Assembly (NCBI GenBank): GCA_903926465.1
Contig: CAIYJE010000078.1
Span: forward strand, 1-38,960
Source: an uncultured Planctomycetales bacterium
GTDB lineage: Bacteria; Planctomycetota; Planctomycetia; Isosphaerales; Isosphaeraceae
DNA length: 38,960 nucleotides
Direction: 5' to 3'
The notes beneath the pieces are model-generated. The model searched no databases. It saw nothing but the letters and a program-made list of their open reading frames with translations, and was not told the origin of the DNA. Of the stretch, positions 1-29,138 are shown piece after piece. The position numbers and the translations under genes were made by a program. Position 1 is the first letter of the stretch; every line of letters starts with the position of its first letter.

Positions 1-101
1 ATCGGCTCCGCTTCGCTACGCGATGAGAAAAGCCTTATCTATTCAAGTGGCTTTTATCATCGGCTCCGCTTCGCTACGCGATGAGAAAAGCCTTATCTAT
101 T
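1..101. repeat. 43-bp direct repeat pair with internal dyad
   Basis: Positions 1-43 and 59-101 are identical (43 bp), separated by 15 bp, so the period is 58 bp. Positions 22-34 can pair with 49-61 (12 of 13 positions, 14-nt loop), so the unit also forms a stem-loop across the two copies. The second copy ends exactly where recognisable DUF1559 coding sequence begins (about position 102). The left window edge is the first base of a copy, which suggests an assembly break in a repeat family. I do not recognise the family; a short non-autonomous repeat (REP or MITE-like) or an assembly artefact are both possible. Confidence 0.75.
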
Positions 102-117
102 AGTCGTCATAGGCATT

Positions 118-1077
118 GTGGGAATTCTGGTGGCGTTGATTCTCCCCGCCGCTCAAGCCGCGCGTGAGTCAGCAAAACGCGTCTCTTGCGCCAACAACCT
201 CAGGCAACTCGCCTTGGGAATGAATTCTTACCATGAATCTCATGGCAGTTATCCATCGGCGGCATGTACCGCCGAAACGAAAAAGCATCAGCTCTACTTC
301 GGCTTATATTCCATTCATGCTCGCCTCTTACCGTTCATTGAGCAACGACCCCTGTACAACTCCATCAATTTCTCAGTTGGAACCTGGCCGCCAGATACCT
401 TCAAGGTTGGCGCAAAGGACATGACCGGTGGAATGAACCCGCTTAATCAGACGGTGGCGGGTACGGCAATTGGGCTGTTTCTTTGCCCTTCCGATGGCGG
501 CATGTTCGCTGAAACTGGGAACAATTACCGGGGCAATGCAGGGGTAGGCCCTTCATTATCGACGTTCATTGCCACACCAGACAGTGGCAATGGTATCTTC
601 CCCGAAGCAGAAACTATCAGTGCCAGACTGATTACGGACGGCTTGAGCCAAACCATTGCGCTGAGTGAGCGTGTGCGCGGATCCAACATGGGCAATGGCC
701 AGGAACTTGACCCTGAACGGGATGTCTTTCCTCGACTTGCGCCGGCACAAACAGGCGATCAACTCGTGACGGCCTGCTTGATCTCCGGTCGACCAACACC
801 TGCTTCCGAGGGTTTTACCACGAGTGGCCGGTACTGGTTCTGGACGGGCCGCGAACGAACGCTCTATGTGCATGCCCAAACGCCCAACGGATCCATCCCA
901 GACTGTAGTTACGGCGGTATGACTCCAGCCATGGACATGGCAACCGCCCGGAGCCGACATCCCGGGGGAGTTCAAGCCGCGTTCGCCGATGGCTCCGTGC
1001 GTTTCATCCGTTCAGGCATCAGTGTCGCAATCTGGCGCGCGTTTGGCACGCGAAACGGAAGCGACTTGACAGAATAA
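118..1077 (+). CDS. DUF1559 domain-containing prepilin-like protein, leader missing
   Basis: This is a member of the planctomycete DUF1559 family, type II pseudopilin-like surface proteins of unknown function. The protein starts in the middle of the hydrophobic helix (GILVALILPAAQAARESAKR), followed by the family's SCANNLRQLALGMNSYH segment. It ends with the typical RHPGGVQAAFADGSVRFI and an IWRAFGTRNG tail, so the C-terminal end is complete. In frame upstream, the codons for LLVVIGIV (positions 100-117) are still readable, but a stop lies at 82-84 and no ATG exists. The usual basic segment and GFTLIE prepilin peptidase site are absent, replaced by the 43-bp repeat. GTG at 118 is the only start in frame, but it is unlikely to be the ancestral one. 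The gene is either 5'-truncated by the repeat or damaged by misassembly at the contig edge. About 320 residues is within the family's normal range apart from the missing leader. Confidence 0.85.
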   Translation: MGILVALILPAAQAARESAKRVSCANNLRQLALGMNSYHESHGSYPSAACTAETKKHQLYFGLYSIHARLLPFIEQRPLYNSINFSVGTWPPDTFKVGAKDMTGGMNPLNQTVAGTAIGLFLCPSDGGMFAETGNNYRGNAGVGPSLSTFIATPDSGNGIFPEAETISARLITDGLSQTIALSERVRGSNMGNGQELDPERDVFPRLAPAQTGDQLVTACLISGRPTPASEGFTTSGRYWFWTGRERTLYVHAQTPNGSIPDCSYGGMTPAMDMATARSRHPGGVQAAFADGSVRFIRSGISVAIWRAFGTRNGSDLTE

Positions 1078-2412: not shown

Positions 2413-2925
2413 TCACTTGGCCGACTTCTCATGCTCGGCCTTGCGCGCCGGGAACTCCACCACCACCAGTTGGCGGTTCGCCTCGTCGTAGGCGAATTCC
2501 TGGTAGTAGGGCAACATTGGAAGCTGGATGCCGTCTGGCTGATCCTTCTTGATGACCCCAGACATGAACTCGTCGTAGGTCTTGACCGGTCCATTGTTCT
2601 GGATGTCATAAATCTGAAGCGCCTGCTGAACCTGCTGTACGGCAATGGCACCCACCGACGAGCGGTACGCCTGGGCCACGCTCCCCAGATACCCCTCGGT
2701 GTTCCCAGACGGGCCCACCTGGCCACTTCCCTGAACAAGTTGCCCGCCTTCGGCCAGAGCGCTCTCCAGTTTCAAGACATTCTGCGTCGTTTTCCGGATC
2801 GTCTCACGGGGCTGAACCGCCGTCGGAGCGACCGGCTTGGGCGGGCCTGAATCACCACAACCGGCCATCAGCATGGCAGTGACAGGAAATACGAACGGAA
2901 CAGTCCAGATAAAAAGTAAGCGCAT
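2413..2925 (-). CDS. small exported lipoprotein, hypothetical
   Basis: The protein is 170 residues from ATG 2925. Longer in-frame starts exist, but this one puts a clean lipoprotein signal at the N-terminus: MRLLFIWTVPFVFPV, then AMLMAGC with Cys at about residue 22. The mature part starts with a Pro/Ala-rich linker (SGPPKPVAPTAVQP). It then has a helical segment (TIRKTTQNVLKLESALAE), a Gly-rich patch, and a C-terminal part with DEFMSGVIKKDQPDG and YYQEFAYDEANRQLVVVEFP. That part looks like a small domain often found in planctomycete lipoproteins, of unknown function. It lies 77 bp downstream of the NHL-repeat gene on the same strand and is probably in its transcription unit. No enzymatic motif is visible. 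Confidence 0.75.
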   Translation of the reverse strand: MRLLFIWTVPFVFPVTAMLMAGCGDSGPPKPVAPTAVQPRETIRKTTQNVLKLESALAEGGQLVQGSGQVGPSGNTEGYLGSVAQAYRSSVGAIAVQQVQQALQIYDIQNNGPVKTYDEFMSGVIKKDQPDGIQLPMLPYYQEFAYDEANRQLVVVEFPARKAEHEKSAK

Positions 2926-3002
2926 AAGAATCTTGGTCCCAAGTCTTGTCTGTAAAAAAACGTTTTTGCAAAAGGAAAAGCCAAGGAACCACACAGTCAA
3001 AC

Positions 3003-4094
3003 TCAAGAGAGTTTTCGCAGCTTGCTGATCCGGCCTGGCACCACCCATTCGGCCACGATGATATTCCCCTGGTGGTCAAAGCAGGCGTCGTGCGGATGCA
3101 CGAACCGGCCATCGGTCCATTGCTCGGGCTGCGTGCGAACCTTGAAACCATCGAGCACCGTCTTGGTCCATGCAGGATCATAGCCCAGGTGGCTGATCAC
3201 CTGATTCTTGGGGTCCATGAGCGTAAGCCGGGCATGGAGATCCGGAATCAGCAGCACGTCGCCCTGAATGTCAAAGTGGGCCGGAAAGCTGACGTCGTGA
3301 TTCTCGCTCTGGAAAACGCCATTGAGATCGGTGTATTGCAACCGGGCGTTGGCCCGGTCGGCAATCACCAGGCTCACATCACGGCCTGGCCGGTTATCCA
3401 GCCAGATGCCGTGCGGCGTACGATATTGCCCGGCCGCTTCACCGGTACCACCCCAGGTCTTCACGTAGGTATCCGACTTATCAAATTGATGAACATAGTT
3501 TGACCCATATCCATCGGCCACATAAAAGCCGCCGTCTGGCGCAAACGCCACATTGGTGGGCGAGAAGGCCACCTTGGGATCATCGTAAACGCCGGTAACC
3601 GACGTCCGATCCTTGATCCAGACAACCTCCCCCTTGAGGTCGGCCTTGACCACCAGATTCACGGGAAACATGAACGCCAGATACAGAAACTCCTGGCCGT
3701 TCTCTTCACGAATATCAATACCATGGCCGCCACCGTGCCACTGCTTGCCAAACGAGTGCACAAACTTGCCGGCGGGGTCAAACACCACCACCGTGTCTTG
3801 AGCCTCGGCGTCAGACTTGGGCCGATCGCTGCCCGCGCGATGGGTGATATAAACCAACCCCTGCTTATCAACGGCCACTCCGTGCGTCTCAAACCACTGG
3901 ATATGGTCGGGCTTCTGACCCCAGTGATGATCACACTCATAGCGATAACTGCTCGTTCCCACCACCGCTGAAGCTATGCTGCCCTTGCTCGGGGTCTGGA
4001 TGAAGAACGAAGCCGCGGCCATTCCGGCAGCCGACGACTTGAGAAACGAACGACGATTCGGTTCAGACCGATCCAGAAACTGGAGTTCGCTCAT
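3003..4094 (-). CDS. Tat-exported NHL-repeat six-bladed beta-propeller protein
   Basis: The 363-residue protein has an N-terminal twin-arginine signal (NRRSFLKSSAAGMAAASFF), so it is probably exported folded to the periplasm. The rest contains repeated NHL-type blades: HGVAVDKQGLVYITHR, HGIDIREENGQEFLYLAF, TNVAFAPDGGFYVADGYGSN, PHGIWLDNRPGRDVSLVIADR, and a last blade HPHDACFDHQGNIIVAEW. This pattern matches NHL propellers such as those related to the lyase domain of peptidylglycine alpha-amidating monooxygenase. Family members bind metals or act as lyases, but many planctomycete copies are uncharacterised. The conserved His and Asp at the blade starts are visible. It is the first gene of a likely two-gene unit with the lipoprotein at 2413-2925. 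The substrate is unknown. Confidence 0.88.
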   Translation of the reverse strand: MSELQFLDRSEPNRRSFLKSSAAGMAAASFFIQTPSKGSIASAVVGTSSYRYECDHHWGQKPDHIQWFETHGVAVDKQGLVYITHRAGSDRPKSDAEAQDTVVVFDPAGKFVHSFGKQWHGGGHGIDIREENGQEFLYLAFMFPVNLVVKADLKGEVVWIKDRTSVTGVYDDPKVAFSPTNVAFAPDGGFYVADGYGSNYVHQFDKSDTYVKTWGGTGEAAGQYRTPHGIWLDNRPGRDVSLVIADRANARLQYTDLNGVFQSENHDVSFPAHFDIQGDVLLIPDLHARLTLMDPKNQVISHLGYDPAWTKTVLDGFKVRTQPEQWTDGRFVHPHDACFDHQGNIIVAEWVVPGRISKLRKLS

Positions 4095-4267
4095 GGCATA
4101 TACCGCCGAGGAAGTTAGGGCTCAGGACGGCTCTTGATCGCCAATCAGCATCCGATCACGTGACAGACAATCCACGCTCGACTCAACCCACCAACCGCCA
4201 GAAACGTTGGCCGGAGCCCACAGCAAGCAAACCCTATGAGATCCGGCCCGAACTTTGCCCCAGCAGG

Positions 4268-4314
4268 GGACCACCAAACTCACGCCAGGTCGCTGGCAAC
4301 AAGCCTGGTGGTCC
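4268..4314 (-). terminator. stem-loop downstream of the DUF2325 gene
   Basis: The arms 4268-4276 and 4306-4314 are complementary (9 bp), and the loop contains a second small hairpin, GCCAG-GTCG-CTGGC. It begins 9 nt after the stop codon of the minus-strand gene ending at 4323. No U-tract follows, so it may be a 3'-stabilising or Rho-assisted element rather than a classical intrinsic terminator. Confidence 0.4.
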
Positions 4315-4322
4315 AGCTTGGG

Positions 4323-5837
4323 TCAGCCCGCGCGAACCAGGCCTTTACGCAGAGCGTCGGCCACATTCGATGGGCCATAGCCCTTATCGACCAGAACCAG
4401 CGGAACCTCGCTGTGCTCACAGGCGGGCCGCATCCGTGCGGTCACGGTATGACCCACCAGCGCCTTGAGGATAATGACCAAATCCACGCTTCGGCTCCGT
4501 ACCCGCTGCTCGATCGAATCCAGCAGATTGGGACGGTTGGTTCCCAGGCTCTCCCAGTCAAGCGACTCAAACTCAAAGGCGTGCTCAAGCGTGCGCCGCA
4601 TATCTTCGCGGGCCGTGCCGCCAATCAGGAGCGCCCGCTTGCCCCGGGTTCGATCCACCAGATCACGAACCTGGTCCTGAATCGAAGTGTCCAGAGGCTC
4701 TTCTTCATCGTCCTGTCTCAGAGCATCCAGGTACTTGCGAACCCCGCGGTACTCGGCACCGGTGAGCAGATCCCGATAGGGGCTGATCAGTTCCAGAACC
4801 TCGGTGTCGGTTTCACCCCGGCCGGCCAGGATGATATCCAGAGCCTCATAGAACGGCTCAATGCCTTCCTCATCTTCGGGAAGGTCATAGTGGATCAGAA
4901 TGGCCTTGAGGTCTTCGAAAGCATGGTCGGCATCCGAACGGCTCACCCGCTGGCGATCATCACCACGTCCGCCGTGGTCTCTCCGGCGCGGCTGATCGGT
5001 CTCACGACGCAGGCCGGCGGTCTCGGTGGCTTCCTTGAGTTGCTCTTCAGCCTCGCCCACGTACACATCCCAGTCGGTATTGAAGCTCTGGCGGAAGGCT
5101 TCGATATAACCAGGCTCATACTGCTTGGAAATGCTGACAAGCTTGGGGAAAACCCGCTGCAGGGCGGTCGTTTCCTCTTCGGTCAGATTCTCGGCCTCGT
5201 ACGCTTGAAGGCGACGGAACCGACCAATCCAGATGGTGAGCTGGGCCAGCCGCTCGCGCCCATCAAGCTGAGCGAAGTGAGGTGCCGCATCTTCCACTTC
5301 CCGACCGAGGGCCCGAACCTGACCACCGGGGGTCAAAATTTCGGCGGCGCGAGCAATCTTGTCCGATTCCACAAAATCGGCCGCCAGATGTGGCAGCAGG
5401 CGATCCAGTTCCCGGCGCAGGGCCAGGTAATGTTCCATCGCATTTTCGAGGTTGCGGCGGGTATCAATCACGTCTCGGTTGAGTTTCTCGATCTCATCCT
5501 TGGTCGTGCGTCGCCGAATCTCAATTTCTTGCTTCGTCTCTTCGATTTGTGACGTGAAAACCGTGCTGTCTGCGGGGGAGAGTGTGGCTGTTCCCATCAA
5601 AACCGCAACCTTCCGGGTCAATTCCCGGAGTTGCTGCTCTTCCTCGGAGACATCGGTCAAAACCCGCTGAAGCAATACCCGACGCTCACGGTGTAAGGTA
5701 TCGGCCTCACGCGCCTTGAGTTCGGCCTCCTCAAGAGCATCAGCGGCATACTCGGTTTCACTACCAAGCTTCTGGGCCCGGGTCTTGGCCTCAGCCTGAC
5801 GAACCATTTCCGCAAGTCGATCAATGGGCTTGGGCAT
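4323..5837 (-). CDS. coiled-coil protein with C-terminal DUF2325 domain
   Basis: The protein is 504 residues from ATG 5837 (MPKPIDRLAEMVRQ). The open frame extends further upstream, but that part has no protein-like character. Residues 1-170 are strongly charged heptad-like helix (AKTRAQKLGSETEYAADALEEAELKA broken into segments, IEETKQEIEIRRR, DEIEKLNRDVIDTRRNL), so a coiled coil is expected. A helical middle follows, then a short basic, Arg/Asp/Gly-rich linker (RRRDHGGRGDDRQR). Residues about 395-500 match the DUF2325 pattern: RALLIGGTAREDMRR at the start, SVDLVIILKALVGH in the middle, and PLVLVDKGYGPSNVADAL near the end. This is a small Rossmann-like domain of unknown function. No signal peptide is visible, so it is cytoplasmic. 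The gene stands alone between a stem-loop and a 414-bp gene-free stretch. Confidence 0.8.
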   Translation of the reverse strand: MPKPIDRLAEMVRQAEAKTRAQKLGSETEYAADALEEAELKAREADTLHRERRVLLQRVLTDVSEEEQQLRELTRKVAVLMGTATLSPADSTVFTSQIEETKQEIEIRRRTTKDEIEKLNRDVIDTRRNLENAMEHYLALRRELDRLLPHLAADFVESDKIARAAEILTPGGQVRALGREVEDAAPHFAQLDGRERLAQLTIWIGRFRRLQAYEAENLTEEETTALQRVFPKLVSISKQYEPGYIEAFRQSFNTDWDVYVGEAEEQLKEATETAGLRRETDQPRRRDHGGRGDDRQRVSRSDADHAFEDLKAILIHYDLPEDEEGIEPFYEALDIILAGRGETDTEVLELISPYRDLLTGAEYRGVRKYLDALRQDDEEEPLDTSIQDQVRDLVDRTRGKRALLIGGTAREDMRRTLEHAFEFESLDWESLGTNRPNLLDSIEQRVRSRSVDLVIILKALVGHTVTARMRPACEHSEVPLVLVDKGYGPSNVADALRKGLVRAG

Positions 5838-20537: not shown

Positions 20538-23500
20538 TCAGCGGGTTGCCGGACGCCTGACTGTGAAGCCAGAAACCCGCGGTACGGCCTGGCCGACTGC
20601 GTGCTTCAAAGCTTTGGGATGGACAACGTGCGACGGAGGTGAGATTGGCGGTGACGTGGGGGTGGCAATGAAGCCAGACAAAAGCACCTTACCGGAATGG
20701 CCCCCGATAAGTATCTGCGCGTAACCATGATGCAAATTGTTATAGGTGTTGCTGGTAATCGCTAAATTAAGGTCTCTGGTATCATTGGCAGAGATATAAT
20801 TCACGTTCATACCACCGGAAACGTACCGTTGGGAAGACCACGAAACACGAAGAGTCTGGGTATTGATTACGGTGATCTGGCCAGACGCTCCATAATTTGG
20901 GATTAGAACCAGGTCAGGAAGACCATCAGAGCCAACAAGGTTCTGCGCCTGTGCCGTGAAGCCTTTCCTCAGATTATTTGAAACATACCCCTTGATTTTC
21001 TGAACAACGCCGGTTCGACCGTCGATCAGGAACGGGGTTGCTGGACCGGTCTTCGGGATAACCACATAGTCAGGGGAGCGATCTCCATTGACATCAATCT
21101 GAGAGACGGTGAACCCACCGGTATATGACCCAGGCGCAAGCTGCCGACGCCAGCAATCTTTGCCTGTCTCTTTGTTCGATAGTTGCACAAAGTTCGGACC
21201 GGTTATTAAAGCAGACTCATACTTATGAAGAACCAGGTGAACTTGCTGGTTGAACAGTTGACCAGATACAAATTGCATCTCGTCGGACTTGCCAGTCGTT
21301 GCATCGAACGTTGAAAGGATGCCAGCGTTGGTCATGGTGCCGCGGGGCGCAAGCTTGTGGGTTGGAGGCAATTTCACTTGCAGGTAACCCATGCCGGTGT
21401 ATTTGGTCTGGAAATGAAATTGTCCAGTACTATCGGACGCTGTCTTTGCAATCAGGCTTCCATCAGCACTGTGAAGTTCCAGAACAAGGCCGACCATGGG
21501 CGTGCCATGATTCCGTGTAACGGCCGACGGTGTCACGCCACCAGAAATCACACGAATTGGTGGAACAGCCAGGGAACCTGTGCTCTGGTACATCCCCGTG
21601 ACGGCAAGCGGAGAAACATTGGAACCTGAAGAACTTTCCGCATGACCAGCAGACGAGTAATTGTTGCAGCTACTGCTACCCCAGTTCGTTCCGGATCCTC
21701 CCGCCTTCCCGCCACCATGACCACCACCGGCAGCGCCACCACTGCCCGCAGTTTGTGAATTGCCAGAAAACCGTTGTGGGAGATTGGAAAGAGGATCATA
21801 ATACACATATCCATCATATTCTAATCCGCCACCATTGGCATCTCCGCCGGTACCGCCAGTTCCGGAGGTTTTATTGGTACTGTAACCACCTTGCCCACCC
21901 TTACCACCGTTGGCCTTATTACTTTCAAAACCAGATCCAGGACTGATGTAAAGGTTACTACCCGAGTTGACAAACATACCACCACCGAAAGCGGAACCGC
22001 CTGGCAATCCATTGGCTCCATTAATGCCATTACCTTCGGTGCCATAGCCGCCCACACCACCAATTGCAGAATTACTTCTGATGTTGCTATTTAAGAGGTA
22101 GAGACTACCAGCCGCCTGATAGATTCCGCCGCCATAAGCATTACCACCCGCACCAGCACCTTTGATATGATCGCCGGCCAGGATCTCGCCATTCGAATTC
22201 CAGGAGGCATCATGTGTAGGACTCGAACCGGTTCCACCCACAGCCTGATTATTCTGGACATTACTATTATTGATCTTCAGCGTGCCACCCCCGTGATAAA
22301 TCCCGCCGCCAACTGCGGTACCGCCGGTTCCGGCAGTCACGTTACCACCCGTGATATTCACGCTATTGAGAATGAATGAGCCATGCCAGGTGGCGTTGCC
22401 AATCGTCATGTTCCGGCCATTCCCGTGCGACGAGATTGTCGGGGTGCCACCGCCCTGGCCAGAGACCGTCACCTCGCCGGCTGTCAGCATGTATAAAGGG
22501 GAATTCAGACTGTAAGTGGAATTACTACCCAGGATCACACCCACAGACGCCCAGCCATCATCGGCAAGGCCTTGTGCCCAGTTAAGAGCACTCCGTAAGC
22601 TACCACCCGATGTGGAAAAATTGGCTAACCCTGCCGTAGTACCTCCATCATCCGAGGTACTGAATACACCCCACGCCAAGTTATTACCGCCCGCAGGCGC
22701 ACTATTCCCAGAGAGAGTCGGCATACCGCCCGTCAGATTGGAACCATTCCAGAATGATAGGCCCGCGCCAACACCATTCATAACGCCAGTTATCGTATTA
22801 CTGGTAACTGACCAGGACCCGCCTGGGGCATTCATCACCCCCGCAGTATTGACCCGAACACCTGCCCCACTCGCATTGCCACCACTTGGACCCGATAGGG
22901 TATTCCCACTAATATTCAACGAGCCACTGAAATTCATGGTCGCCGCACCATCGAAGATCCCACCCCCCTGAACCTGGCCCGTGGCGCCCGTGGTGGTTGC
23001 CGCGTTGCTCTTCACGTTCAGAGCCTTCGCGTTCAGCGTGCCGCCGCTCAGAAACAGTCCACCACCATAGCCGGCGCCCGGCGTGCTAATCGTGTTCGAA
23101 CTGATGCTCACCGTGGTCATTTTGGCCGCTGGAATCGACGCCAACGCCACCCCAGCTCCAGGGGCACCCGCAGAATTGTGATTTTTCTTGATCGAAACGT
23201 TCTTGAGGCCAAGCGATCCTTTATAGACATACAGCCCACCGCCGCCATTACTCGATGACCATAAGGCAGAGCCACCCGTCACACTGTTCGACTTGGCATA
23301 GCCTCCGGTCATCTTGACCGTGGCACTTACGGCCGCAAGGCCACCACCCGCGTAACCGGCCTTGTTCAGCTTGAAATGGTCCCCCTTCAGGCTCAGGCTG
23401 CTATTGGATGCATAGAGGCCACCACCAGAACCACTGACCGTATTCCCCGTGATTGTGGCATTAGAAACCGTCACCACCGGCTTTCCGCCATTCCACTCAG

Positions 23501-26500
23501 TCGCGGCAATCGCACCACCGTTCACAGCCGTATTCGCAACTCCGTTCCCCGTGGGTGCAAAGCTGCCACCACTCACAATCAGGAGCGACGTCCCATTCAC
23601 AAACACAGCGCCACCGTTTCCTAGCGAACTGTTGCCCGTGAATGTGCAACCGGAAAGCGTGAGCGGAACATTGGTCCCCTGAATCCCACCGCCAGCACCA
23701 CTCGCCTTGTTGCTGGATACCGTGACCGAGGATAAGGTCATCGGGACTTTCGGGCTATTGGACACATATACGCCACCACCGAGACTCGTGGCGATATTAT
23801 TGTTGATGGTACCATTTAACATGCTGAACGTGGTGCCATTCAGGTAGATACCCCCACCCCAGATTGCTTTATTTCGCCTGATGTTCGTGTTTGAGAGTGC
23901 CAGACTACCGCTCGACTGGTAAATCCCACCGCCACCATTGCCACCCGATCCCGAAGTGGCCGTATTCGAGCTAACATTCACCGTGTTCAGCTTGAGCTGG
24001 GCACCACTGTTCGCAGCAATCGCTCCCCCCATATAGGCTGAATTCTTGGTGAAACTTGTGCCCGTGACCGTGACTGTTGACCCTACATTGGCATAAAGTG
24101 CACCGCCAAGGCTGAGTGACGTTGTGTTACTGGTGAATATATCGTTAGTCAACGTCAGGGTGACGGCTGATACGCAGATCGCGCCGCCCACATTCGATGC
24201 GCTCTTGTTGCCCGTTAACGTTACACCTGAAAGGGATATCGTTCCCGTCGAGTATCCTGACTCGTTGGAGAAGATGGCCCCCCCATACACACCGGCCGTG
24301 TTATTGGAAAGCTGCCCCCCCGTGATAGTTACGGCACAGCCATACACAGGCATGATGGCCCCGCCACTACCACCCGCGGCATTTTGTTCGATGTTGGTGT
24401 TGGTGAGCTTGAGCGAACCGCCAGACTGATAAACGCCGCCGCCATTGCCGCTGGCGGTGTTGCTGAGCACGCTTACACTTGCAAGCGCAACCGCCTGGGC
24501 AGCATTGGTGTTGGTCGCGTCGATCGCACCACCAGTGGTGGCATTGCCGTGTTCCAGTGTAAGCTTACTCAGGCTCAGAATCGAATTCGAAACTTTGAAG
24601 ATCGAACCTACCGTACTACTGTTGTTTCCACTGATCATGGTCGATACGCTCGGCGACGTTCCAGCCCCCACCCCCTGAATGGTCAGCGAACCGGTTTCTA
24701 CCGACGTCACCAATAAACTACCCTGGGTCAGGGTGTAGGTGCCGGCTGATAGCTCCAGCGTGGTGGCCATTCCACTATATGCCAGCGAACTCGCGGCGGT
24801 TACGGCCGTGCGCAGGTTCCACAGCCCGACGCTGCTCACCGCAGCATCGGCGACCGTGGTGAGCGGCACCGGCAGATCCAGGTTGGCGGTGGTCGAAGCG
24901 CCGTTCACAATGCTCTGGTTCAACTGGGGAGCCACGCTGACCTGGTCCAGGAAGGTCGTCTGGTCGAGGTTCGAAGGATCCAGGTTCGTGAACGTGAGCG
25001 TGGCCGAGTTGGACGTGGGAACAAACGAGAGCGTGGTGAATGCCTGATAACTGGTGGTCGGTTTGTAGGTACCCAGCACAGTGCCGTTGATCGACACGGT
25101 GAATGTCGAGGGCCCCCCTGAAGACCCCACTCGGGTGGCGGCATCAAAATGCACCACGTAGGCAAGCCCTGGCCGGAAACCGGTCAGGGACTGCGAGATC
25201 GTTCCTGCAGCCTGAATTAAAGCCACCTGGTTTCCCTGGGGCGCAGTGGCATTGGCACCCGTAAACCCGCTGCCATTACTGGAAATACCGGCACTTCCGG
25301 AAAAGCTCCAGCCCAGGCCACTGCCAGTCGGCGGTTGCACAAACACACCAGCCGCAAGTGTGGGCGTTTCAAACCCAGAATTGGCTACCGTTATCGCCGA
25401 AGCCGAAAAATTGAACATGCCGGCACCCGCAGGTGGATTACTCACGCTGACCTGGCCGGGTGTCAGGTAAAGAACACCGCCAGATGTACCAACGGGGCCA
25501 GGCGTTACCGTGCCGTTGCTGTATCCCTTGCCGGGAGACTGAACGTTTCCGACCACGGTCACCGATCGAGCCTTGTTCCCGCTGTTGAAAACCAACTCTC
25601 CAGAATACATATACAAACCCGCGCCGAAGGCGTTGCCACCGGCCCCACCTGTTCCCACGCCATTGCTAATGGTGCCACCAGTACCGCCCAGGGTCACGGT
25701 TTTCGTGCCGGCCGCATTGGGAGCCCGGTTCAGCATGTTCCCGCTAATCGAGGCACCGCCGTCGAGTGTCAGAATCGACACCTTGGTGGGTGCCGTCTGC
25801 ACCGAACCGCTCTGCGGGGCACCAATCGCAATGGCACCGCCGTAGGCGCCACCGCCAGTTCCACCCATGGTCAGGAGCGCATTATTGACATTGCCACCCT
25901 TACCGCCGATCACGCGACAACCACTGATCGCCGAATTGCCGTCGATGGTGATATTACTACCAGCCGCGCCATAGATGCCGCCGCCGGCCGCATTATATCC
26001 CACACCGTGACGACCGCTGGCTACAGCGGCCGTTCTGGCCCGCGTGGTAACCTGGGTCCCTTTCAATCCACTGGCCACACAGTTCTGGATCCGAGAGTTT
26101 TTCAGGACCAGAACGCTACCGGCATTCACATACACTCCACCGCCCAGCGCGTCTGGTCCTGCGGGCGAGAAGTTTGTGGTGCCACCATGCTCATACCCGT
26201 TTTCAACCAGCACATTTTCAAGGTAAAGGCTCTGCCCGCCCGAGACCGAAAAAGCTCGACTGACAAAGTTGGCGTTAATCGTACCGTTAGAGATCACCAG
26301 CGGGACGCGGCCGGTACCGAGCTGGCCAGCATCATTCACAGAAAGCTGGTAGGCATAATCATTGGATGTGGTGTACGGCGAATTCACAAAAGTGTATGTA
26401 CCACCCCCGAGGTTAATATTGAATGCACCCAGAAGTGGCTGGGCGGTGTTAACCTTGGTGTAGATATAAAGGTTATAATAATTCACGAGCTGGCGCACCG

Positions 26501-29138
26501 TGTACGCCACACAGAACTGGCCTACGGTTGAGGATGTATTCCCTGCATAAGCGGTATACACCTGGTTCGTGGGAACCGGCAGCGTCACACTATCAACCAT
26601 CGAGACCACATACGCCGCAATCGGGATTGTGAGCGACGGCGCGACATTGGATCCGGTTGTGGTGTTGGTATAGCCGGCAGGTAGCGTAATGGTGGGTGCG
26701 GCCACGGGTGCCGCCACGCCGTTCACGCCCGATTGCTCTGGCGGCAGGGTTCCCGCGCTTGTGATGTAAGAAGCCATGGGGATGGGCGCTGCCGCGTAAA
26801 TGGTTACCGACATTGTGCTGGTGCCGGTGGGCAGGTTCTTGAGCTTGAATGCGATACTGGACGTATTTGTGACTTGATAGCTGCTGGAGTTTGGCGCCAC
26901 GGCATTCACAATTGCGTAGCCTGCGGGCGCCGTATAGTTAACCAGGGTGGTACCAGCCAGGCTGGCCGACCCGGAATTATTGACGGAAAACGTGTAAGTG
27001 AGCTGGTTTCCAGGCACATACAGCGTGGATGAACCTACCACATAGGGGGTTTTTCCAAGCGTTGCCGAAATCGACAGCGATACTCCCACATTGACCAGCG
27101 GATTGACGGTCTGAGTGTACACCGCGCTAGTACTGGCCGCGTAATTGCTATCGCCCGAATAACTGGCGGTGATACTTTGTGAGCCTACGACCAAAGCCGA
27201 GGTGGTTAACTGGGCGATTCCAGACGCCATCTCCACCGGAAGACCGAGCGCCGTGGGGCCGTTGTAGAACTGAACGGTGCCCGTAGGCGTGAGGGGAGCC
27301 GTTGAACTGCCAGCCACGGTGGCCGTGAACGTCACGGAAGTACCGGCGTAACTTGAACTCGATGAACTGAGCAGAGTGGTTGTTGAAGCGTTCAGGTTGA
27401 CCGTCTGGGTCAGGGCAGGGCTCGTGGTACTTTTGGCATAATTTCCCTGATAAGACGCGGTAATGCTATTGCTACCGCTGGGTAGCGAGGTGCTGGAATA
27501 CGTGGCCGTACCCGCGGCAGAGAGCGTGACCGCAGACCCAAGCGGGATTCCATTGTTATAGAATTGAACACTTCCGGTGATCGGCGAGCCACCCGAGGTA
27601 CCGGGCAGAACGGTTGCCGTGATGTTGACCGTGGTGCCCAGCGTTGAGGGGTTATCCAAACTGATAATACCGATTGTGCTGGCAACTACGGTTGTAGATG
27701 TGATTGTTTGGCTTAACTGGCTGCTTTTTTGTGTGGCGTAGCTAGAACTTCCACTGTAAACGGCCGTGATAAACTGGTTACCAGCGGCCAGTGAACTGGT
27801 GCTGTAACTGGCGATTCCACCGGATAGGGCGACTGCGGAACCCAGCGGTGTGGATCCCTCATAAAACTGCACCGTACCCGTGGGAGTGGGTGCACCCGAG
27901 GATCCAGCCACCGTGGCCGTGAACGTGACCAAAGATCCAGCAATGGCCGAACTATTAGAACTATACAGGGTTACCGTGGGAACAGGCAGATTGACTGTCT
28001 CGACCAGCGCGGAACTAATGCCTGTTGTGTAATTACCATCGCCCGAATACGAAGCCGAGATCGACTGAGAACCCACGCCGAGCGCCGACGTGGAGTAGCT
28101 GGCGGTTCCAGAGCCACTTACCGTGACCGGAGCGCCTATTGGCGTGCTTCCATTGTAGAACTGCACGGTGCCGGTGGGAGTGACTGAGCCTGTGGTTCCA
28201 GCCCCCACGGTGGCGGTAAAGGAGACCGAGTTGCCGGCAGTCACCGGATTGGTGGCACTGACCATGCTAACGGTGGGCACATTCAGTTCAACGGTTTGTG
28301 TAATGTTCGGACTGGTGCTGGCGGCATAGTTACTATCGCCACTGTAAACGGCGGTAATTTGATAAGGGCTGGAACCGGCAACCAAGGCATCCGTATACGT
28401 GGCTGTACCCGCGGCAGAGAGCGAGACCGCAGACCCGAGGGCCGTGGTGCCATTGTTATAAAACTGTAGAGTACCAGTGGGTATGGCCGTATTACCGGTA
28501 CCGCTAAGCACGCTGGCGGTGAAGGTGACCACATTGCCTGAATAGCTGGTGCTGGCCAAGCTCGCAAGGGAGGTGGAACTGGGTGCTGAGGCAGCCTGGT
28601 AGTTATCGGTCACGCTGGCGGTTGTGCTGCCGCTTGAATTGGTGGCACCTGCGGGCATGGTCAGTGTGGCGATGTTCGTCACGGTGCCCGCCACATTGGT
28701 GGGCGGAGCAGAAGCTGTGGTTGGTTTTTCCACCACGCTCACCGACAGCATGCCACCGGGGGCAATGGCTGGCAGCGTCCAGGTAATCGAAGAGCCGGAA
28801 GACTGATAGGTTCCGCCCCCCACGCCGGTGGTGGGGCTGGCTCCGCCGGTGCTGGTGCTGAACAGGCCCGTATTGACAGTTTTCGAAAATGCCATGCCCG
28901 CAGGTAGCAGATCCGAGATTTGCGCACCGGCCGGCACCGTGCTATTCCCTTGATTCTCCACCGTAATTGTGTAGGCAATGGGAATGCCGGGCGTGTACTG
29001 GTTCTGCCCACTGTCCCACATTGAATAAAAACTCAGATCGACCGTGGAGAGCAAGATCCGATCTTCCATCCTCTCGATCTGCCTGAGGGTCATATTTTTG
29101 GCACGGACATTTCTGGCTGAACGCTTAGGCTTATGCAT
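20538..29138 (-). CDS. giant adhesin-like surface protein: LEPR-type, DUF11, Ig-like, Pmp beta-helix, DUF642-like, FG-GAP
   Basis: The 2866-residue protein starts with basic MHKPKRSARNVRAKN and then IERMEDRILLSTVDLS, a LEPR-XLL-like N-terminus. The modules in order are: a DUF11-like domain (about 33-180, IAYTITVENQGNSTVPAG); five Ig-like repeats of about 85-95 residues (185-680), each with TPTGTVQFYNGS and ITASYSGDSNYA-type strands; and a second DUF11-like domain. Then come a right-handed beta-helix stretch, a DUF642-like domain (NSGFETPTL, GWSFSGSAG, about 1250-1400), and a long beta-helix with Chlamydia Pmp-style repeats (FTSNTTSLSLGGAL, FTKNSAYMGGAIAANSG). A Gly/Asn-rich helix part follows, then a CNA_B-like fold (VLELHSADGSLIAKTASDSTGQ) and FG-GAP-like repeats (DVNGDRSPDYVVIP). 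No autotransporter barrel, LPXTG or PEP-CTERM is present. It lies 81 bp after the second giant on the same strand. A role in adhesion or cell surface structure is inferred. Confidence 0.88.
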   Translation of the reverse strand: MHKPKRSARNVRAKNMTLRQIERMEDRILLSTVDLSFYSMWDSGQNQYTPGIPIAYTITVENQGNSTVPAGAQISDLLPAGMAFSKTVNTGLFSTSTGGASPTTGVGGGTYQSSGSSITWTLPAIAPGGMLSVSVVEKPTTASAPPTNVAGTVTNIATLTMPAGATNSSGSTTASVTDNYQAASAPSSTSLASLASTSYSGNVVTFTASVLSGTGNTAIPTGTLQFYNNGTTALGSAVSLSAAGTATYTDALVAGSSPYQITAVYSGDSNYAASTSPNITQTVELNVPTVSMVSATNPVTAGNSVSFTATVGAGTTGSVTPTGTVQFYNGSTPIGAPVTVSGSGTASYSTSALGVGSQSISASYSGDGNYTTGISSALVETVNLPVPTVTLYSSNSSAIAGSLVTFTATVAGSSGAPTPTGTVQFYEGSTPLGSAVALSGGIASYSTSSLAAGNQFITAVYSGSSSYATQKSSQLSQTITSTTVVASTIGIISLDNPSTLGTTVNITATVLPGTSGGSPITGSVQFYNNGIPLGSAVTLSAAGTATYSSTSLPSGSNSITASYQGNYAKSTTSPALTQTVNLNASTTTLLSSSSSSYAGTSVTFTATVAGSSTAPLTPTGTVQFYNGPTALGLPVEMASGIAQLTTSALVVGSQSITASYSGDSNYAASTSAVYTQTVNPLVNVGVSLSISATLGKTPYVVGSSTLYVPGNQLTYTFSVNNSGSASLAGTTLVNYTAPAGYAIVNAVAPNSSSYQVTNTSSIAFKLKNLPTGTSTMSVTIYAAAPIPMASYITSAGTLPPEQSGVNGVAAPVAAPTITLPAGYTNTTTGSNVAPSLTIPIAAYVVSMVDSVTLPVPTNQVYTAYAGNTSSTVGQFCVAYTVRQLVNYYNLYIYTKVNTAQPLLGAFNINLGGGTYTFVNSPYTTSNDYAYQLSVNDAGQLGTGRVPLVISNGTINANFVSRAFSVSGGQSLYLENVLVENGYEHGGTTNFSPAGPDALGGGVYVNAGSVLVLKNSRIQNCVASGLKGTQVTTRARTAAVASGRHGVGYNAAGGGIYGAAGSNITIDGNSAISGCRVIGGKGGNVNNALLTMGGTGGGAYGGAIAIGAPQSGSVQTAPTKVSILTLDGGASISGNMLNRAPNAAGTKTVTLGGTGGTISNGVGTGGAGGNAFGAGLYMYSGELVFNSGNKARSVTVVGNVQSPGKGYSNGTVTPGPVGTSGGVLYLTPGQVSVSNPPAGAGMFNFSASAITVANSGFETPTLAAGVFVQPPTGSGLGWSFSGSAGISSNGSGFTGANATAPQGNQVALIQAAGTISQSLTGFRPGLAYVVHFDAATRVGSSGGPSTFTVSINGTVLGTYKPTTSYQAFTTLSFVPTSNSATLTFTNLDPSNLDQTTFLDQVSVAPQLNQSIVNGASTTANLDLPVPLTTVADAAVSSVGLWNLRTAVTAASSLAYSGMATTLELSAGTYTLTQGSLLVTSVETGSLTIQGVGAGTSPSVSTMISGNNSSTVGSIFKVSNSILSLSKLTLEHGNATTGGAIDATNTNAAQAVALASVSVLSNTASGNGGGVYQSGGSLKLTNTNIEQNAAGGSGGAIMPVYGCAVTITGGQLSNNTAGVYGGAIFSNESGYSTGTISLSGVTLTGNKSASNVGGAICVSAVTLTLTNDIFTSNTTSLSLGGALYANVGSTVTVTGTSFTKNSAYMGGAIAANSGAQLKLNTVNVSSNTATSGSGGNGGGGIYQSSGSLALSNTNIRRNKAIWGGGIYLNGTTFSMLNGTINNNIATSLGGGVYVSNSPKVPMTLSSVTVSSNKASGAGGGIQGTNVPLTLSGCTFTGNSSLGNGGAVFVNGTSLLIVSGGSFAPTGNGVANTAVNGGAIAATEWNGGKPVVTVSNATITGNTVSGSGGGLYASNSSLSLKGDHFKLNKAGYAGGGLAAVSATVKMTGGYAKSNSVTGGSALWSSSNGGGGLYVYKGSLGLKNVSIKKNHNSAGAPGAGVALASIPAAKMTTVSISSNTISTPGAGYGGGLFLSGGTLNAKALNVKSNAATTTGATGQVQGGGIFDGAATMNFSGSLNISGNTLSGPSGGNASGAGVRVNTAGVMNAPGGSWSVTSNTITGVMNGVGAGLSFWNGSNLTGGMPTLSGNSAPAGGNNLAWGVFSTSDDGGTTAGLANFSTSGGSLRSALNWAQGLADDGWASVGVILGSNSTYSLNSPLYMLTAGEVTVSGQGGGTPTISSHGNGRNMTIGNATWHGSFILNSVNITGGNVTAGTGGTAVGGGIYHGGGTLKINNSNVQNNQAVGGTGSSPTHDASWNSNGEILAGDHIKGAGAGGNAYGGGIYQAAGSLYLLNSNIRSNSAIGGVGGYGTEGNGINGANGLPGGSAFGGGMFVNSGSNLYISPGSGFESNKANGGKGGQGGYSTNKTSGTGGTGGDANGGGLEYDGYVYYDPLSNLPQRFSGNSQTAGSGGAAGGGHGGGKAGGSGTNWGSSSCNNYSSAGHAESSSGSNVSPLAVTGMYQSTGSLAVPPIRVISGGVTPSAVTRNHGTPMVGLVLELHSADGSLIAKTASDSTGQFHFQTKYTGMGYLQVKLPPTHKLAPRGTMTNAGILSTFDATTGKSDEMQFVSGQLFNQQVHLVLHKYESALITGPNFVQLSNKETGKDCWRRQLAPGSYTGGFTVSQIDVNGDRSPDYVVIPKTGPATPFLIDGRTGVVQKIKGYVSNNLRKGFTAQAQNLVGSDGLPDLVLIPNYGASGQITVINTQTLRVSWSSQRYVSGGMNVNYISANDTRDLNLAITSNTYNNLHHGYAQILIGGHSGKVLLSGFIATPTSPPISPPSHVVHPKALKHAVGQAVPRVSGFTVRRPATR
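21650..24800 (-). repeat. Pmp-like beta-helix repeat region (coding)
   Basis: Within the 2866-residue protein, short units of about 25-30 residues recur. They have the pattern (F/I)xxNxAxxGGAI/GGGIY and an intervening hydrophobic-Thr/Ser-rich strand, as in Chlamydia polymorphic membrane proteins and other parallel beta-helices. The boundaries are approximate. DNA copies are divergent, so this is old repetition rather than recent expansion. Confidence 0.75.
27100..28590 (-). repeat. five tandem Ig-like modules (coding)
   Basis: Five units of about 85-95 codons carry the shared strands VTFTATV, PTGTVQFYN, and ITASYSGD(S/G)NY. They match the Ig-like fold repeated in many bacterial adhesins (Ig_3_5 type). 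The copies are similar but clearly diverged at the DNA level. Confidence 0.8.

Follow-up and report, generated by a model that had tools for sequence, protein, structure and literature searches.

The IS91 family of insertion sequences (IS91, IS801 and ISCR) comprises HUH/Y2 rolling-circle elements, and its characterised members target the tetranucleotides GTTC or CTTG at the right end. Other family traits are a GC-rich stem-loop at the left end (terIS), a stem-loop beside the tip of the right end (oriIS) and insertion without duplication of the target site. According to excerpts of one report, IS91 and IS801 have the origin at the right end and the termination site at the left end, and one-ended transposition occurs; IS91 is said there to be without proper terminal inverted repeats (PMC3189936). 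Among the partial texts returned by a literature search, no paper pairing IS91 with Planctomycetes was found. For the DUF1559 family of prepilin-like proteins, excerpts of two reports give 74 genes in R. baltica (PMC2754498) and 68 paralogues in P. limnophila (PMC10632474).

The window, by which we mean the whole stretch of DNA analysed (38,960 nucleotides), is the entire contig C78, bases 1-38960, of a planctomycete genome in 207 contigs (G000, the window's own genome). It opens with a repeat that adjoins a DUF1559 gene without its leader. Very probably, an IS91-related element was inserted in this gene and the outer part of its right end makes up window 1-101, which would add one more IS91-related insertion in a planctomycete. 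The start of the window is a real and ordinary insertion-element junction at a contig end. A contig boundary in a repeated element can mimic a strange gene, and when a gene has lost its leader, the first thing to ask is if the contig starts at that point.

The start of the contig

The features at the left edge of the window are the following.

1..43, plus strand: right-end tail, copy 1, cut by the contig start (hairpin loop, right arm and tip CTATT), identical to 59-101
44..101, plus strand: right-end tail, copy 2, complete 58 bp from CAAG through the hairpin to TTATCTATT, presumed oriIS-like end (alignment)
49..92, plus strand: imperfect hairpin of the right end (DNA fold)
82..84, plus strand: TGA stop, in frame with the DUF1559 gene, within the element end
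101..102, plus strand: junction between the element tip and the interrupted gene (six-contig comparison)
102..1077, plus strand: 3' part of the DUF1559 (prepilin-like) gene, beginning with the third base of the second Leu codon (E-L-L-V-V) and running to the stop (PF07596, TIGR04294)
118..1077, plus strand: leaderless open reading frame of 319 aa, start GTG at 118 in the frame of the gene

Contig C78 starts at window position 1, inside a repeated element, because repeats break assemblies. Two exact 43-nt copies are located at 1-43 and 59-101, with a spacing of 58. The initial annotation described a 43-bp repeat; both exact copies are present, but the unit proper is 58 bp (CAAG to CTATT, with the tip TTATCTATT), and the first copy seems to be 43 bp long because the window starts inside that unit. 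The tandem arrangement is present in full on another contig, C147. The remaining letters-only readings, namely the TGA at 82-84, the LLVVIGIVGIL frame and the missing leader, were all confirmed in the sequence. Promoter and terminator scans of window positions 1-300 returned no hits, and an Rfam search of three loci returned one tRNA and nothing else.

The other end of the contig (38548-38960) is also a repeat, with two 194-bp copies that are 219 apart and 87% identical. These copies are inside a minus-strand open reading frame of 3243 aa that matches SdrD_B and FG-GAP. An open reading frame of 2866 aa with bacterial Ig-like domains (20538-29138, minus strand; PF16640, five stretches) adjoins this larger one, such that two giant proteins are encoded side by side.

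The interrupted gene

The frame of the gene can be read from position 97, where CTA TTA GTC GTC ATA GGC ATT GTG GGA ATT CTG encodes LLVVIGIVGIL. The CTATT of the element supplies the first Leu codon and two bases of the second, and the in-frame Leu-Leu at the junction is possibly due to chance. As a separate idea, CTATT was considered as a target in the leader (GAR-CTATT); this pattern gave no matches in G000 and was rejected. From position 103, the protein matches DUF1559 (PF07596, E 7e-44) and the H-X9-DG C-terminal domain (TIGR04294). The frame is free of internal stops until the terminal one at 1077. The lack of decay in the fragment would fit a recent insertion into the DUF1559 gene.

A protein search gave matches in 45 of 45 genomes, from which 30 loci were given, one of them the window itself. 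The other 29 loci, one from each of 29 genomes and two of them nearly identical to each other, were all read upstream, and every one (29/29) carries a GFTLIE-type leader directly upstream, in GFT, AFT, GVT, GMT, GLT, GIT, GYT, AFS or GFS forms. In the window, such a leader is absent upstream of the fragment, and the element tip takes its place. The gene is a broken member of the DUF1559/prepilin-like family and not a member of a different family. The initial annotation was right in proposing that an insertion or recombination had cut the gene at its 5' end. The fragment would probably make no processed pilin, and the earlier statement that the product has no prepilin peptidase site stands as what the absent leader would imply. 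Loss of one copy is probably tolerated, because 50 matches to the DUF1559 protein were found in G000.

Right and left ends of the element in the same genome

The right-end tip ..AAAAGCCTTATCTATT occurs on six contigs (C43, C54, C78, C124, C147, and C192), each time followed by a different flank. A search for the unit elsewhere in the genome, as had been proposed, located it at the starts of C54, C124, C192 and C147 and near the end of C43; its recurrence at the ends of five other contigs makes the repeat more than a chance occurrence. With the tips of the six contigs brought into register, any two of them match without a difference over 42, 51, 58 or 141 bp on the left side, lengths that are limited by sequence variants and contig starts, and share 0 to 4 bases on the right. 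C54 and C124, for example, are identical across the full 141 bp present in both on the left of the tip, and diverge immediately after it. Approximately 141 bp up to the tip are common to C43, C54, C124 and C192 at 97% identity or more, and C43 continues 89 bp further inward. Counted on the alignment, the 58-bp tails of C192, C147, C124, C54 and C43 differ from that of the window at 0 to 3 positions. The window's hairpin has a predicted energy of -12.3 kcal/mol (DNA fold; z -3.4, 0/200 shuffles as good).

Six contigs share the tip and then diverge, which identifies the repeat as the terminus of a multi-copy element. G000 thus holds at least six right ends of an IS91-related element. The boundary that had been placed at the end of the second repeat copy is exact, as the six contigs agree up to base 101. 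What changes is the agent: the 43-bp repeat is not itself the inserted unit but the right-end tip of a multi-copy IS91-related element, the body of which is off the contig.

A common left end, TTGGACGAAGCG, was found at four contig ends (C3, C22, C23, and C192) in a sample of 198 of the 414 contig ends (178 + 20). All four enter the left end at the same base, at TTGGACGAAGCGG, which is the inverted repeat of CGCTTCGTCCAA, a sequence located inside the right end. On C192, the contig start carries a right end and the opposite extremity a left end. The next ~100 bp of the left end resemble, by eye, the left end of a complete element in another genome of the family, G003 (see below). The left ends fold weakly: a short stem (GCGGC/GCCGC) in G000 reaches a z of only -1.1, and in G003 another stem is favoured, with a z of -0.3. 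At the C23 end (L159, 563-602), the left end follows immediately after a hairpin that resembles a terminator and has a T run.

Two other left-end patterns had been tried and were rejected. A pattern beginning AATAGAT gave no matches, and a long inverted copy of the right end gave five matches with no left end among them, namely four right ends already known and a single site with 3 mismatches. Both patterns rested on an incorrect assumption about the tip.

A complete relative in a second genome

The right-end sequence has matches in 2 of the 45 family genomes, G000 itself and G003. In G003, one complete copy (locus L032, approximately 2692-5158, or some 2.5 kb) contains, in order, a left end, recombinase ORFs, a transposase and a right end. 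Upstream of the transposase, a tyrosine recombinase is encoded in two ORFs (PF13495; PF00589). The transposase is a protein of 395 aa that matches the IS91 family model NF033538 (E 2e-108) as well as PF04986 (Y2_Tnp) and PF14319. It is thus an HUH/Y2 transposase with a zinc-binding N-terminus. The right end, 3' of this gene, consists of a hairpin and TTATCTA; a right end with a stem-loop next to the tip is therefore located 3' of the transposase in G003, and the same end occurs in G000. The G003 hairpin has a longer stem than the window's, with a z of about -6, and in the alignment, by eye, one stem pair is changed on both sides between the two genomes (T-A vs G-C). In the window's hairpin variant, one stem position is unpaired. 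At the flanks of the complete G003 copy (..GTGGCTA / ATGGTGT..), no clear target-site duplication was seen by eye; among the G000 copies, none could be matched to both of its flanks.

A transposase of the G003 type gave no matches in G000 with a query that does find G003, and the body of the element appears to be absent from the G000 assembly. Being repeated, this body may have dropped out of the binned assembly, and we infer that the G000 element encodes an IS91-type transposase. By the transposase of its nearest complete relative, the element would belong to the IS91 family, with upstream recombinase genes; 'IS91-related' is the safe wording for the G000 element, of which the ends were found.

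In an order-level search (the same 45 genomes as the family), transposases of this type were matched in 6/45 at E 1e-60 or better, and G003 alone had an identity above 50%. The genus search contained G000 only. The right-end sequence gave no matches in genome_contigs or viral_contigs, collections from which G000 records may be left out. In genome_contigs, relatives of the transposase were found at two loci, the G003 contig itself and a second, partly masked one with 44% identity. A second, different IS91-type element is present in G003 (contig C512; L076, 2887-2920), with a strong hairpin after its transposase, which is 46% identical.

The doubled tail

The 58-bp tail is doubled in two of the six copies, in the window (1-101, first copy cut) and on C147 (L002, 1-125). 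Both have the same junction, CTATT|CAAG, without microhomology, at unrelated insertion sites. The hairpin variant of the doubled tails is ATCA in the window and CTCT on C147, and single tails are known for both variants (C192; C124, C54 and C43). The same doubling is found in two variants, each of which also occurs with a single tail. A single event does not account for this, whereas two duplications, or one duplication plus gene conversion, for example, would. Simple insertion does not explain the doubled tail. Candidate causes that would explain it are a lineage with tandem origins, insertion at CAAG in the right end of another copy, or a reaction of the transposase or the tyrosine recombinase. 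Insertion of one copy in another's right end is possible because CAAG is the complement of CTTG, an IS91 target. A site-specific process by which the element itself adds or duplicates its right-end tail is improbable. The doubled origin-like end is the sole part of this locus that could teach how such elements replicate.

Explanations of the junction

The shared tip, the coinciding junctions, the left ends and the relative with an IS91 transposase, all observed directly, are best accounted for by insertion. An IS91-related rolling-circle (HUH/Y2) element would have inserted in the Leu-Leu behind the GFTLIE-type motif. The hairpin, the TTATCTATT tip and the tandem 58-bp tail in window 1-101 would then form the outer part of its right end. 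Everything else in the element, together with the 5' end of the gene, would lie beyond the contig, which presumably broke at the repeated element, and the leader half would be on the far side of the same element copy.

An unlikely alternative, though the strongest of those considered, is that there was no simple insertion, and that an element end already present became fused to the gene through a deletion, an inversion, recombination between copies or one-ended transposition, with the leader half gone or elsewhere. The left half of the gene was indeed not found in the 198 of 414 contig ends sampled; at these 198 ends, one regular expression, which misses unusual leaders, matched no prepilin leader within 500 bp. 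According to excerpts of the IS801 report (PMC3189936), right-end fragments of this IS91-family element arise by one-ended transposition, and most fragments are thought to stem from reorganisations. The doubled tail of the window would also suit such a history. Against this alternative, the tip forms the junction here just as it does in the five other copies, and the downstream frame has not decayed.

An assembly chimera, in which an intact gene was falsely attached to the contig start, is very improbable. The junction is at a contig end, where errors gather. A comparison of 94 contig ends revealed 117 shared 25-mers in five pairs (141 bp if one piece) and 105-116 in 19 pairs, and we read this sharing as typical of a de Bruijn assembly that breaks at repeats. 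However, six contigs with six different flanks have the tip at an identical base, and the matches listed include no near-identical second copy of the gene (the best other own-genome match is 40% identical). With six contigs departing from the element at one common base, and four entering its left end at one common base, misassembly is unlikely. A free-standing short repeat (REP or MITE-like) can be largely dismissed: the unit has a hairpin, occurs in several places and spans just 101 bp on C78, but ~141 bp are common to four contigs, C43 extends 89 bp beyond them, and the same end closes the IS91 element in G003.

Comparison with known systems

A hairpin near the right end is also a feature of IS200/IS605 elements (Y1, palindromic ends), and this family had been guessed from the hairpin; it was dropped once G003 showed an IS91 transposase, as the relative carries Y2_Tnp and not Y1_Tnp. 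Y1 matches in G000 number five, none on the six right-end contigs. At the C25 end of G000 (L016, 1300-2129), a Y1 transposase-like ORF (PF01797) is followed by ~93-bp direct repeats, which recur at the start of contig C30 (L106 start); this looks like a REP-associated transposase with its repeats.

IS91-type elements on plasmids of Caballeronia, Methylobacterium and Herpetosiphon have an integrase directly upstream of the transposase on the same strand. These three records were selected for naming an integrase under the match, as 3 of the 20 rows listed do, and in two of the three, the integrase-transposase pair is flanked by exact inverted repeats of 17-18 bp. Their transposases are 37-40% identical. 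No hairpin of at least 10 pairs was found in the 600 bp after these transposases by a simple scan, through which the window's imperfect hairpin was not put.

The IS91 family itself provides the closest likeness. An IS91-family transposase in the relative is followed on its 3' side by a hairpin-bearing right end, and ends of this type are multi-copy in G000. The element differs from IS91 in three respects. First, no tetranucleotide target is located directly at the outer tips in G000: the bases that follow the six tips are AGTC, TCCT, AGCT, AGTC, GGCC and TGTT, and GTTC or CTTG directly follows none of the six. CTTG is located two bases beyond the outer tip on C147, and its complement, CAAG, is next to the inner tips of the two doubled tails. 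Second, the G000 element has a 12-bp inverted repeat (TTGGACGAAGCG / CGCTTCGTCCAA), which is subterminal on the right. Third, tyrosine recombinase genes are located upstream of the transposase in the G003 relative.
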